From: Fistulifera solaris
Taxonomy: Eukaryota > Bacillariophyta > Bacillariophyceae > Naviculales > Stauroneidaceae
Length of the DNA stretch: 64,000 bases
Assembly (NCBI GenBank): GCA_030295235.1
Contig: AP026125.1
Span: forward strand, 1,426,001-1,490,000
Direction of reading: 5' to 3'
In this document: one piece after another, positions 39,863 through 48,370 of the stretch
How positions within the stretch are numbered: position 1 is the stretch's first letter
How the letters are laid out: each line of letters opens with the position of its first letter
The notes under the pieces: model-generated
What the model was told of the DNA's origin: nothing
The model's input: only the letters and a program-made list of their open reading frames with translations
Database searches by the model: none
Position numbers and translations under genes: made by a program

Positions 39863-41418
39863 ATGACTACCGCGTCAATTTCGTGTGCCATAGACCGTAA
39901 CGATGCAAGCTTTCCGACGGACACTCATTGTTCACGAAAGGATGAACAAAGTCTACAAACAACGGCGGATGAACATGACGCAACCGAATATCGCAATCCA
40001 CTCATGAATTTGTTCGGAAGCAATAGCACGAAGCGTTTTGATCAAAATGAAACAGAGTTGGATGATATTCGTGTTCTTTCTTTCGTCAGCCGAGAGCGCG
40101 AACCCGGCTTTGACGATTGCCCCGAATACAGCTATGATTCTGACAATGAAAATACTTCACAGAACGATTGTCATGAGACACATGGTTCCGACGACGCACA
40201 CGGATCCTTGCAAGCTTACATTCTTGGAAAGAAATATCATCCCGTTCATGACTACACGCTTCGGAGAGAGGACGAAATATCACTATTTTGGTTCACCTAT
40301 CGCTGCGATTTTCCCGAAATAAAGCCATATCGAATTCAAAGTGATGCTGGCTGGGGTTGTATGTTGCGATCCGCTCAGATGATGCTCTGTCAAGTCTTAC
40401 GACTACATTACAAATCACGTACATGGAGACCTCCCAAGTCGTTAGCGGCACGGCGACAAGACCCATTCGTCAGTAGATTGATGACTTGGTTTGCCGATTT
40501 TCCATCGACCACAGAATGTTTTTATTCCTTTCAGAATATGGTAGCGGCTGGACTGAACTATGATAAATTACCTGGCGAATGGTACGGACCTGGCACGGTG
40601 AGCTTTGTCATTCGCGATTTAGTAGCTATACATGACCAACAAAGGCAAGAGCTCGACAAGACTCTATTTCGAGTGCACGTTGCAAGTCAAGGCACGGTGT
40701 ATCGTGACGAGGTACGCCGATTAATGATACAAGGCGCAAATACCGCTGCAGCTCTTACAAAAGGAGGAACCGCATCGAGGCCAGGTGCTGCGCATCCGCT
40801 AGACCACGCTGCTTGGGAAGAAGATCATCTTGAAAAAGTACCCGACTGGGACACTGCCTTGCTGCTATTGATCCCTTTGCGTTTGGGTCTGAAAACATTT
40901 AATTTGGACTACGTCCGAGCACTTGCACATACCTTTTCGTTGCCTCAGTCTGTCGGCGTGTTGGGGGTCGCCCACGTGGAGCGCGGTATTTTTACGGCGC
41001 ATTTTCCGATGGATCAAAAATTTTTGGTCTCGATCCGCATACTGTTCAAGCTGCACCACAGCGTGCTTCTGTGAGCATCAACGGAGAGTTGTCGTCAATG
41101 ATAGATTTATCAGACGAAAATCTTCGGTCCATACATACAGCCTACCCCGAATCTATTTCGCTCGAGAAAATGGATCCGAGCATCACCCTTGGGTTTTACT
41201 GTGAAAACGAACGTGATTTACAATTTATTTTTGAAAGCGTACAACAGTGGAAGACCGAAAATCCTGGGTCGCCGGAGCTGTTTACGACGGCAAATTATTC
41301 GCCGGACTACGCAGCAAATATTTCGTCAACCATGAAGAAAATCATGCTATCCAGTTCCTCGCTCCTTGACACGGAGGAAGATCAAATAAGCGACGAAGAT
41401 GACTATGTCATGCTGTGA
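39863..41418 (+). CDS. ATG4: ATG4 cysteine protease (one frame break)
   Basis: About 519 residues. ATG4 trims and delipidates ATG8 in autophagy. The catalytic Cys is in SDAGWGCMLRSAQMMLC. The regulatory and active-site segments continue to LPQSVGVLG. At 40963-40967 (GGGGG, one G short) the frame changes; downstream the catalytic Asp and His are present in GLDPHTVQ, and the C-terminal region ends EDQISDEDDYVML. That last tetrapeptide YVML after acidic residues fits an ATG8-interacting motif, as found at ATG4 C-termini elsewhere. Upstream of residue 130 the protein is acidic and probably disordered. No introns. Confidence 0.88.
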
Positions 41419-41673: not shown

Positions 41674-41677
41674 AAAA
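41674..41677 (-). terminator. RNA polymerase III terminator (TTTT) of the permuted tRNA
   Basis: Minus-strand TTTT one base after the GCGTT arm that closes the precursor; the right place for Pol III termination. Confidence 0.7.
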
Positions 41678-41776
41678 GAACGCTCATAAGACCGGCACTC
41701 TAACCACTGAGTTACTAAGGCATTTAGCAATACCTTAGGCGAGGTTTGAACTCACGACCTCCGGCTCACTAGCGTT
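41674..41776 (-). tRNA. Circularly permuted tRNA-Ile(UAU) gene (3' half upstream of 5' half)
   Basis: On the minus strand the 3' half comes first: 41766-41731 = A38, GCCGG, variable loop AGGTC, T-arm GTGAG-TTCAAAC-CTCGC, acceptor CTAAGGT, discriminator A. After a 9-nt linker (41730-41722) comes the 5' half: 41721-41685 = acceptor GCCTTAG, TA, D-arm ACTC-AGTGGTTA-GAGT, G, CCGGT, CTTATG. Joined, all four stems pair (acceptor 7 bp with one G.U, D 4, anticodon 5 with one U.G, T 5 with one U.G). The loop is CTTATGA, anticodon UAU. The outer flanks AACGC (41776-41772) and GCGTT (41683-41679) are complementary, and both strands carry a TGA bulge, giving a bulge-helix-bulge-like junction at the usual 37/38 intron site. 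T-arm and D-arm wording agrees with eukaryotic tRNA-Ile(UAU). No CCA is encoded. Confidence 0.85.
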
Positions 41777-41795
41777 GGGGTTAAGCCATTTTATC
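41775..41795 (-). promoter_or_regulatory. TATA-like box and CAA start motif upstream of the permuted tRNA
   Basis: Minus strand GATAAAATGG at 41795-41786 followed by CCCCAA at 41780-41775, spaced like the upstream TATA-like box and CAA start motif of plant tRNA genes. The internal A and B boxes are in inverted order in this gene, so an upstream promoter would be useful. Confidence 0.4.
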
Positions 41796-46431: not shown

Positions 46432-48370
46432 TTAAGGGAGTAAAAAAGTAAGCTTCTGGTTTGTACTGCAAGAGGCAACTGGAAATTTCGAGCTACTTAC
46501 CGAGATTTCGTTCGCAACTCCCTCCTCCGGTTCATAGACGTAGCCCAGAAACATCTCTCCTGCGCAGCCATACGTCTCCAAAATGTAGGACTCCAGAGCC
46601 TTCTGTTCTTTGAAAAGAGTACGCGTGGCGCATGAATAACGATATTTCTCAATGTTTAAAGAATCGACAAGATGGAAATCGACGTCACCATCGCCAATGT
46701 GATGCTTCAAAATGCAGACAGAATGACCGCTGATGAGCAGTGTGGCCGCTGCATTGTTGCGCGTATTCGCAAGTGCACTCAAAAATTCCCCTAGCGCTTT
46801 AGAATCATCAGCAGGTCCTCCATACGCCGGATAATCCTCGCCTCTTTCAACCGCTTTCACTTTGCCTTCGCCTAATTGCCCGAGTATGTAATTATTAACG
46901 TCCATGGCCTCTAGATAATCACCGTAACTGAGATTCGACATATCCCGAAGAAACTTGAGCAATGGAACACATTCCTCATCAATAATTTCAATGAGCCTGG
47001 CTTCAGAGGGCACGGGATCTGTGGATGCATCAGCGCTCTCTACTTTCAGAAAATCAAGTGCGACGAGTGCCGAAATGACTGTACAACCGTTCAACGACGT
47101 ATAGGGGCTTCCATTGTTATTTAAAATGGGATTCCGGTAACGATCCTTGACCGGCTGTAGAAGTTTTCGTCCTTGAACGGTATGGATGAAGAATACTTGA
47201 CTTGACCGAGAAGACCCGGTGCCTCCCATTAGTCGCGCTGACAAATGCAGTGTCGAGTCCTTTCGAATGTTATAGTCACGCAAAGTACGACCATCCTCGA
47301 GCACTTTAGTGGAAAAGCTCAAACATTGTGCATCAGGAGGAATACCTTCCTTCTCCTGAATCAACGACTTGATTTTGCTTATCGAGTAAAGAGCGTCGGC
47401 GTCCAGGACAAGAGTCTTTCCCGCAAGACCCTTCATAAAGATTTGCAAACAGGGGGCGTTGGGTGCAGGCGTTTGCTCAGCGTTACTCGGAACGGGTTTC
47501 GACGGATAAAATCGAGCGTTTCGAAGACGAATTGGAAACGAACGATGAACCAAACCACGATATGACAAAAATCGACGACTTCGGTGCTTCTGCTGTTTCT
47601 TTTCCCAACGTTCACGGGCACGACGAGCACGTCTAGGCGACAAATCGTCGACAGCAAGTCTGTAAAATAACAAAAAAGCAGAATTTACAGTGAGTGCAGA
47701 TGCTCGCTCTTTTGTAAAGCAATTGTGGCTACTTACGGCATTGCTACTTCCGGAGTTCTCCAAGGCCCCGGTGGCTCACGGTTCTTCCAAAAGAGTCCCT
47801 TCTTTTGTAGTAATTCTTCTTCCTCTTGTAGTTCTTCTTCTTCTTCGACTTCTTCTTCTTGTTCTTCTTTTTCTTCCGGCTCTTCTTCTTTTGCGGAAAG
47901 TGCGTATGAGAAGAAGAGGTCGCACCAACTGGGACAGGGGTCGTGGTGGTTCGTTCAGCAGCGAGGAAACCAAACACCGTCGAGAAATTTAAAGCAACAA
48001 AGGCGAAATTCTTTACTATCGACCAAGAATTTACAGCTCCAACGACGAGCTGCCGTAGACTAGTCATTCGAGCCCAAATTCCAAAGAGAAAAGCTGCCCA
48101 GTCGCTCTTCTTCGGGTCGCGGTTGAACGGGGTATCTTTCTTGTCACACAGTAGATGCTGCCCTTTTTCAAAAGACATGAAACTATCCACCGGTTCATCT
48201 TGAGCATCATCATCTTCAAGACAAGCAAACCGGTTGTTATGAACAACGACAAAAGAGAGTTTTTTGTTTCCGGCAGTAAAAGAACTGCTTTTTCCCGAGT
48301 CGAAAATAAAGCCATTCGAATCCAGGCCAGGCGGGTCTACGATCAAATTGCGATGTCGTTCCGACTTCAT
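46432..48370 (-). CDS. Ubiquitin-like domain fused to a predicted Cys-His-Asp (protease-like) domain
   Basis: An intron at 47736-47660 (GTAAGT...TACAG) joins an acidic exon (ending [12 protein letters not shown]) to [10 protein letters not shown]. The protein then shows a clear ubiquitin fold: [58 protein letters not shown], ending SARLMGGTG, with GG where ubiquitin is processed. About 240 residues follow with [34 protein letters not shown] and SCATRTLF, aligned to the paralogue at 45156-46059. Upstream of 47740 the gene probably extends to ATG 48370 ([15 protein letters not shown]), but a GAA/AAG-rich stretch at 47820-47900 leaves the frame uncertain. A GTAAGT just after EIS at about 46497 may be another donor. 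A self-cleaving or deubiquitinase-like role is only a guess. Confidence 0.6.

Follow-up and report, generated by a model that had tools for sequence, protein, structure and literature searches.

We describe here a transfer RNA (tRNA) gene in a 64,000-nucleotide (nt) stretch of the genome of the diatom Fistulifera solaris (Naviculales; assembly GCA_030295235.1, contig AP026125.1, positions 1,426,001 to 1,490,000); this whole stretch is called the window, and its numbering is used below. On the minus strand at 41674–41795 a tRNA is encoded with its 3' half ahead of its 5' half, and when the halves are joined between tRNA positions 37 and 38 the locus holds a complete tRNA-Ile(UAU). As read from its sequence, this diatom nuclear locus is a circularly permuted tRNA gene of type II (37/38). 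A diverged second copy is present on contig C6, and we are highly confident that this is a working nuclear gene, with one copy on each of two homoeologous contigs, and that the two copies are probably the cell's only source of tRNA-Ile(UAU). An initial annotation of this DNA had proposed the inverted order of the halves on the minus strand with a 9-nt linker between them, and all of these elements are present at 41674–41795; the nuclear location and diatom host also hold on checking. The C6 homoeolog and a second permuted gene, for tRNA-Arg(ACG), go beyond that annotation. The parts of the window locus are as follows.

41795–41788, minus strand: TATA-like GATAAAAT, a putative upstream promoter element
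41776–41772, minus strand: leader AACGC, complementary to the trailer, followed by TAGTG at 41771–41767
41766–41731, minus strand: 3' half of tRNA-Ile(UAU), A38 to A73, first in transcript order, including the T arm with TTCAAAC
41730–41722, minus strand: linker TTGCTAAAT, 9 nt from A73 to G1, as read from the sequence
41721–41685, minus strand: 5' half of tRNA-Ile(UAU), G1 to G37, second in transcript order
41688–41686, minus strand: anticodon TAT, within the 5' half, with G37 at 41685
41684 and 41683–41679, minus strand: trailer, A followed by GCGTT, complementary to the leader
41677–41674, minus strand: TTTT, resembling an RNA polymerase III terminator

Structure of the joined tRNA

After rearrangement all four stems pair, as had been claimed from the letters of the window. 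The acceptor stem (GCCTTAG/CTAAGGT) has 7 pairs including a G1-U72 wobble, the D stem is ACTC/GAGT, the anticodon stem (CCGGT/GCCGG, with a U31-G39 wobble) closes the loop CUUAUGA, and the T stem (GTGAG/CTCGC, with one U-G pair) carries the T loop TTCAAAC. The joined tRNA further shows T8, G15-C48, G18G19, T33, TTC at 54–56 and A73, all read directly. CCA is not encoded, since TTG directly follows A73, and the linker TTGCTAAAT contains no terminator. The upstream TATA-like box and the T run directly downstream, both pointed out earlier, are present.

Neither ARAGORN nor Rfam called a tRNA in the linear window. When the 82-nt window piece cut at positions 38 and 37 was circularised, ARAGORN called it tRNA-Ile(tat), and the circularised 81-nt piece from C6 received the same call, so the proposed identity and fold are borne out in both copies; left linear, neither piece gave an ARAGORN tRNA call. 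The permutation-aware covariance search that the initial annotation had suggested as a check was made with a model, R2, that excludes the gene under study. Training tRNAs were drawn from this genome by an Rfam search and ARAGORN, and 23 of them were artificially permuted at 37/38 with random linkers; R2 was built from 14 of these, 13 lying on contigs C57–C61 (taken as organellar) and one on C23. The search, with expectation values (E) up to 10, covered the window and 44 of 70 loci (198,347 bases). The window copy scored 67.3 bits (E 2.3e-18, a rough figure, as E-values of such models are) and the C6 copy 69.9 bits, while the third-ranked of the 47 matches, and the best that is not one of the two copies, scored 27.8 bits. 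An earlier model, R1, gave the window gene 80.7 bits and matched nothing else in the window, but that score is biased because R1 was built with both copies included.

A second copy on contig C6

F. solaris is described as an allopolyploid whose 42 pairs of homoeologous chromosomes have an overall homology of 75% (PMC5935921). A 251-nt query against the genome (51.7 Mb in 61 contigs) gave two matches, itself and C6:1401259–1401462 at 86%. The neighbouring gene in the window is ATG4 (40004–41415): the protein has 100% identity over 80% of the query to a Fistulifera solaris record, and tblastn of that record spans 40004–41415. The C6 copy (locus L002) likewise lies just beyond ATG4, and we take the site to be the homoeologous place because ATG4 adjoins the permuted gene there too.

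The two copies do not differ in leader, trailer, anticodon arm or D arm. Their mature tRNAs differ at 8 of 73 positions (4, 47, 49, 50, 52, 62, 65 and 69), all by transitions. Three pairs of the acceptor and T stems (4-69, 49-65 and 52-62) are altered on both sides, pair 50-64 changes from U-G to C-G, and position 47 lies in the variable loop; despite the 8 substitutions all 21 of 21 base pairs are kept. At least three double-sided pair changes arose with a frequency of about 0.0001 among 200,000 random sets of 8 transitions. From leader to TTTT the copies are identical at 94 of 102 aligned positions (92.2%), compared with 162 of 247 (65.6%) over the 300 nt upstream. Although this upstream flank is so diverged, the TATA-like block GGATAARAT is retained on C6, where the linker is 8 nt long (TTGCTAAT) and the T run is TTTTT. 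The permuted tRNA-Ile(UAU) gene is thus conserved and very probably functional.

Two further features of the ATG4 region were seen. At window 40960–40966 the ATG4 frame shifts relative to the F. solaris record, which aligns there in two overlapping tblastn pieces and aligns to the C6 copy in one; this may reflect an indel in the assembly or a tiny intron. On C6 a short fragment of ATG4 (L002:1280–1382, residues 275–308) is repeated in the interval that separates the ATG4 end from the permuted tRNA gene.

Search for an ordinary tRNA-Ile(UAU) gene

The initial annotation had also called for a search for an unpermuted tRNA-Ile(UAU), and none was found by four routes (BLAST and three patterns), a search short of a full census, in which the Rfam tRNA model scored 63 of 1908 candidates. 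BLAST of the rearranged tRNA-Ile against the genome (E up to 10) gave 4 matches, all of them halves of the two permuted genes. A pattern for an intronless tRNA with UAU and a T loop matched 10 places, none called a tRNA by ARAGORN. A pattern of A box plus UAU that allows introns after position 37 matched 6 places, among which the two permuted genes were the only UAU tRNAs; of the others, one is a tRNA-Lys(CTT) with a 16-nt intron and 3 had no ARAGORN call. A looser form of this pattern gave 21 matches, again with the permuted genes as the only UAU tRNAs.

Ordinary intron-bearing nuclear tRNAs were met along the way. ARAGORN called a linear tRNA-Lys(CTT) with a 16-nt intron in the C6:500626 region (L052) and a linear tRNA-Tyr(GTA) with an 18-nt intron in the C1:1923393 region (L080); for the C2 counterpart of the latter (L138) the call was Asn(GTT) and a 19-nt intron, which is probably wrong.

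A second permuted gene, tRNA-Arg(ACG)

The B-box pattern GGTTCRANTCC occurs at 343 places in the genome, of which 113 were covered in 104 loci: 90 regions holding 100 listed B-box places, 13 nuclear places from a stricter pattern (71 places, its 38 on C57–C61 being left out) and one extra Arg region. By design the screen reaches a junction only if an intact B box of this form lies downstream of it. R2 gave two full permuted matches in it, L089 on C3 (51.3 bits) and L131 on C4 (47.4 bits), the next best being a linear tRNA-Leu locus at 28.0 bits. Circularised, L089 was called tRNA-Arg(acg) by ARAGORN. BLAST of the rearranged Arg tRNA gave 6 matches, all halves at three permuted places, and no linear Arg(ACG).

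C3:1501452–1501533 (L089): permuted tRNA-Arg(ACG) copy, from R2 and BLAST
C4:1431067–1431148 (L131): permuted tRNA-Arg(ACG) copy, from R2 and BLAST
C4:1437312–1437397 (L161): third permuted tRNA-Arg(ACG) copy, inverted, about 6 kb from the intact C4 copy, from BLAST

The third copy retains the permuted order but has a broken T arm and gave no R2 match at E up to 1; it looks like a pseudogene. The intact copies, which stand on the homoeologous contigs C3 and C4, differ at one mature position, and their 90 nt upstream are identical at 58 of 87 positions (67%). Before the 3' half stands TTCAG (C3) or TCAG (C4), with a possible pairing partner, CTGAA or CTGA, following the 5' half. CTAGTG precedes the 3' half on C4 and TTAGTG on C3, and the Ile leader also has CTAGTG. 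Judged by the usual consensus, the A box of the Arg genes is regular.

Among the screened loci, 11 of 60 and 14 of 44 gave a call for an ordinary linear tRNA, and none of these was Ile(UAU) or Arg(ACG). ARAGORN in circular mode, applied to the 104 loci and to pieces of L001 and L002, returned wrapped matches in 16 locus-strand combinations, including the Arg loci L089 (466 matches) and L131 (449) and the Ile locus L002 (132). Many of the matches in these three loci have an odd anticodon because most of the cut positions tried are wrong. The window copy went unmatched; its T stem does not fit the B-box expression. A 'tRNA-Trp' at L124 (127 wrapped matches) was rejected by eye for its broken stems. 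The remaining 12 combinations had 2–30 wrapped matches. When everything but the B box was shuffled no region gave any; when only the downstream letters were shuffled, wrapped matches appeared in 62 of 1040 constructs, with at most 70 each, so small counts are meaningless. Two exact patterns applied to viral contigs had 0 matches each. Further permuted genes in this genome are possible.

Two side observations belong to these scans and to the window. Pairs of GGTTCGATTCC sites recur 273–277 bases apart (C4:1009994/1010271, C4:1855610/1855884, C5:1532295/1532568, C7:587036/587309 and C7:891283/891560) and are perhaps a repeat family rather than tRNAs. A minus-strand reading frame at window 46432–47763 has an internal ubiquitin domain (PF00240).

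Proposed processing of the precursor

In Cyanidioschyzon merolae and green algae, permuted pre-tRNAs are reported to be cut at the junction, circularised and then opened at the acceptor stem (PMC3978253), and a similar course is the likeliest here. Transcription by RNA polymerase III would begin at the upstream TATA-like element and end at the T run, and the transcript would run through leader, 3' half, linker, 5' half and trailer. The halves fold into the tRNA body, as the structure and the covariation show, with leader and trailer paired beside the anticodon loop. The tRNA-splicing endonuclease would then cut UG/A on both strands at 37/38, tRNA ligase would join G37 to A38 to give an 82-nt circle, and RNase P and tRNase Z would open the acceptor stem and excise the 9-nt linker before CCA is added; for these steps the algal pathway is our guide.

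The leader AACGC is complementary to the trailer GCGTT, C32 is able to pair with the G at -3, and UGA stands at both cut places, so that a UG/A cut on both strands yields the loop CUUAUGA whichever equivalent position is used. Leader-to-TTTT precursors of the two copies fold with z-scores of -3.72 and -3.47, and 0 of 200 shuffles folded as well. The Arg precursor folds are not significant (z -0.78 and -1.36, with 36 and 20 of 200 shuffles as good), and the minimum-energy fold of the C4 Arg precursor is not a cloverleaf.

The splicing endonuclease domain PF01974 matched on C19 and C20 (a pair) and on C10, all three above cut-off. Rescoring on translated frames, which covered C19 and C10, gave 49.8 bits for the C19 exon (cut-off 27) and 24.9 bits, just below, for the C10 frame. 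The host can be said to carry predicted genes with the tRNA-splicing endonuclease domain.

Alternative explanations

A number of observations weigh against a working permuted gene processed in this manner. A37 is the rule in tRNAs for A-starting codons, and G10 is usual in the D stem. G37 stands beside U36 in both copies, so that the oddity remarked upon in the initial annotation is shared by C6, and the D stem has the pair A10-U25, tolerated perhaps because the internal A box no longer matters in permuted order. The 150-nt downstream flank is also well conserved between the copies (128 of 149, 85.9%). All 21 pairs are kept in 12% of random transition sets, so pair survival by itself is weak; it is the double-sided changes, at the far lower frequency given above, that make strong evidence, not mere pairing. 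Fold strength depends on the ends chosen: a longer window-copy piece has z -2.65 (1 of 200 shuffles as good), and shorter pieces have z -2.31 and -1.77 (5 and 12 of 200). RNAfold minimum-energy folds of the Ile precursors extend the anticodon-leader helix instead of forming a clean bulge-helix-bulge. Of the precursor structure put forward initially, therefore, the pairing of leader with trailer and the UGA on both strands stand, while the bulge-helix-bulge cut at 37/38 is something we infer, because these folds favour the longer helix. The preferred fold of the C3 Arg precursor likewise has a longer helix joining anticodon loop and leader. Such a helix recalls the anticodon-intron pairing that the yeast splicing endonuclease is reported to recognise (PMC3978253). 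As to the ligase, RtcB was not found in this genome by a search whose control matched in 9 of 14 genomes, and a search for the tRNA ligase domain PF09511 had no matches, its positive control likewise matching nowhere; Trl1-type ligase homologs are reported to occur in diatoms (PMC4090602).

Misassembly, named at the outset as what could undo the case, is excluded by the diverged homoeolog: the same layout stands at the homoeologous site of another contig, with 8 differences in the mature tRNA and a diverged upstream flank. Chance resemblance is equally hard to reconcile with 67.3 and 69.9 bits from a model that never saw the gene, and we reject both explanations on these two grounds, leaving them hardly any probability. 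The gene might instead be an inactive relic, in which two tandem tRNA-Ile copies shed their outer halves and left a remnant that is not expressed. G37 and A10-U25 are odd enough to suit a relic, and the third permuted Arg(ACG) copy, the inverted one on C4, is an example of how such copies can decay. The T arm of that copy, however, is broken, while a single mature position separates the two intact Arg copies, and neither the compensating T-stem and acceptor-stem changes between the Ile homoeologs nor their identical leader and trailer would be expected of a relic. Because the C6 copy has diverged and yet keeps 21 pairs, three of them by double-sided change, misassembly and chance are ruled out and a relic is argued against; we think a relic very unlikely.

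It could also be that the permuted gene is real and expressed but redundant, a linear tRNA-Ile(UAU) having been missed. Coverage was partial (63 of 1908 candidates for Rfam; 100 of the 343 B-box sites listed), and the patterns would miss a tRNA whose intron lies elsewhere or whose D arm is odd. BLAST of the rearranged tRNA gave permuted copies only, though, the patterns open to 37/38 introns (6 and 21 matches) gave permuted UAU tRNAs only, and both homoeologs look constrained, so we consider redundancy unlikely. Finally, the tRNA might be made but, through G37, serve in something other than ordinary AUA decoding, for example by being poorly charged or differently read. G37 in both copies where the usual rule leads one to expect A37 speaks for such a role. 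A73 and a body resembling that of eukaryotic tRNA-Ile(UAU) point to isoleucine instead; moreover, AUA codons are in use (5 in the 368 codons of the ATG4 frame at 39863–40966 and 3 in the 152 codons at 40960–41415), and no other UAU tRNA was found in the searches above. We regard such a role as decidedly improbable, and prefer a working permuted gene for tRNA-Ile(UAU). As to base 37, t6A37 is named for yeast (PMC9602550).

Relation to known permuted tRNA genes

Permuted tRNA genes were listed in a 2014 review (Soma) from red and green algae, a green-derived nucleomorph and one archaeon only (PMC3978253). The F. solaris gene is like the type II genes described there from C. merolae, Ostreococcus and Micromonas in having the 3' half first, a 37/38 junction and no encoded CCA; its short linker resembles those of C. 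merolae type II genes (7–31 bp in Table 1 of PMC3978253), and its upstream TATA-like element and downstream T run are as in most C. merolae permuted genes (PMC3978253). It differs from the 34 permuted genes of that review's table in its diatom, that is stramenopile, host, and Ile and Arg(ACG) are absent from that table. The permuted tRNA-Ser of the Bigelowiella natans nucleomorph is type II as well, with a linker of 5 bp (Table 1 of PMC3978253), and a second chlorarachniophyte nucleomorph with permuted tRNA genes was described after the review (PMC4494063); the permuted tRNA-Ser genes of Bigelowiella and Amorphochlora sit in a relict green algal nucleus (PMC4494063), whereas the F. solaris gene is on the diatom's own nuclear chromosomes. 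Those of Auxenochlorella are nuclear like ours and were found after tRNAscan-SE gave an incomplete set, in a green algal host (PMC12636532). The same isoacceptor in C. merolae is also spliced at the anticodon loop, but from a three-intron gene that is described as intron-containing rather than permuted, and in other eukaryotes tRNA-Ile(UAU) is described as intron-containing and spliced at the anticodon loop (PMC9602550). The initial annotation was aware of no permuted tRNA genes in diatoms, and our limited literature searches found no report of any. The tRNA-Ile(UAU) gene and its companion for Arg(ACG) are of a known kind, in a lineage for which we found no earlier report. Since the layout is kept in both halves of the genome and in a second tRNA gene, the permuted form, a rare one, also occurs in a diatom.

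A wider proposition would have F. solaris obtain at least two isoacceptors, Ile(UAU) and Arg(ACG), from permuted genes alone, in an arrangement that predates the split of its parental genomes, is an established feature of a diatom lineage with an origin independent of the red and green algal cases, and lets G37 rather than a modified A37 read AUA. Taken jointly, we rate these proposals about evenly between true and false. F. solaris has been genome-edited (PMC13276009), so the dependence on permuted tRNAs can be put to experiment. A 2018 census of F. solaris with tRNAscan-SE and ARAGORN reported 76 tRNA genes with 34 anticodons, and its authors suspected an incomplete draft (PMC5935921); permuted genes that escaped detection may make up part of that gap, and may partly explain the incomplete tRNA set that standard finders return in this species. 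The allodiploid genome offers a natural experiment, since each gene is there in two intact copies that have diverged and one further copy has decayed. A conserved permuted set in a diatom nucleus fits, without proving, the repeated origin of such genes through duplication of intron-bearing tRNA genes, and would extend the trait to the stramenopiles.
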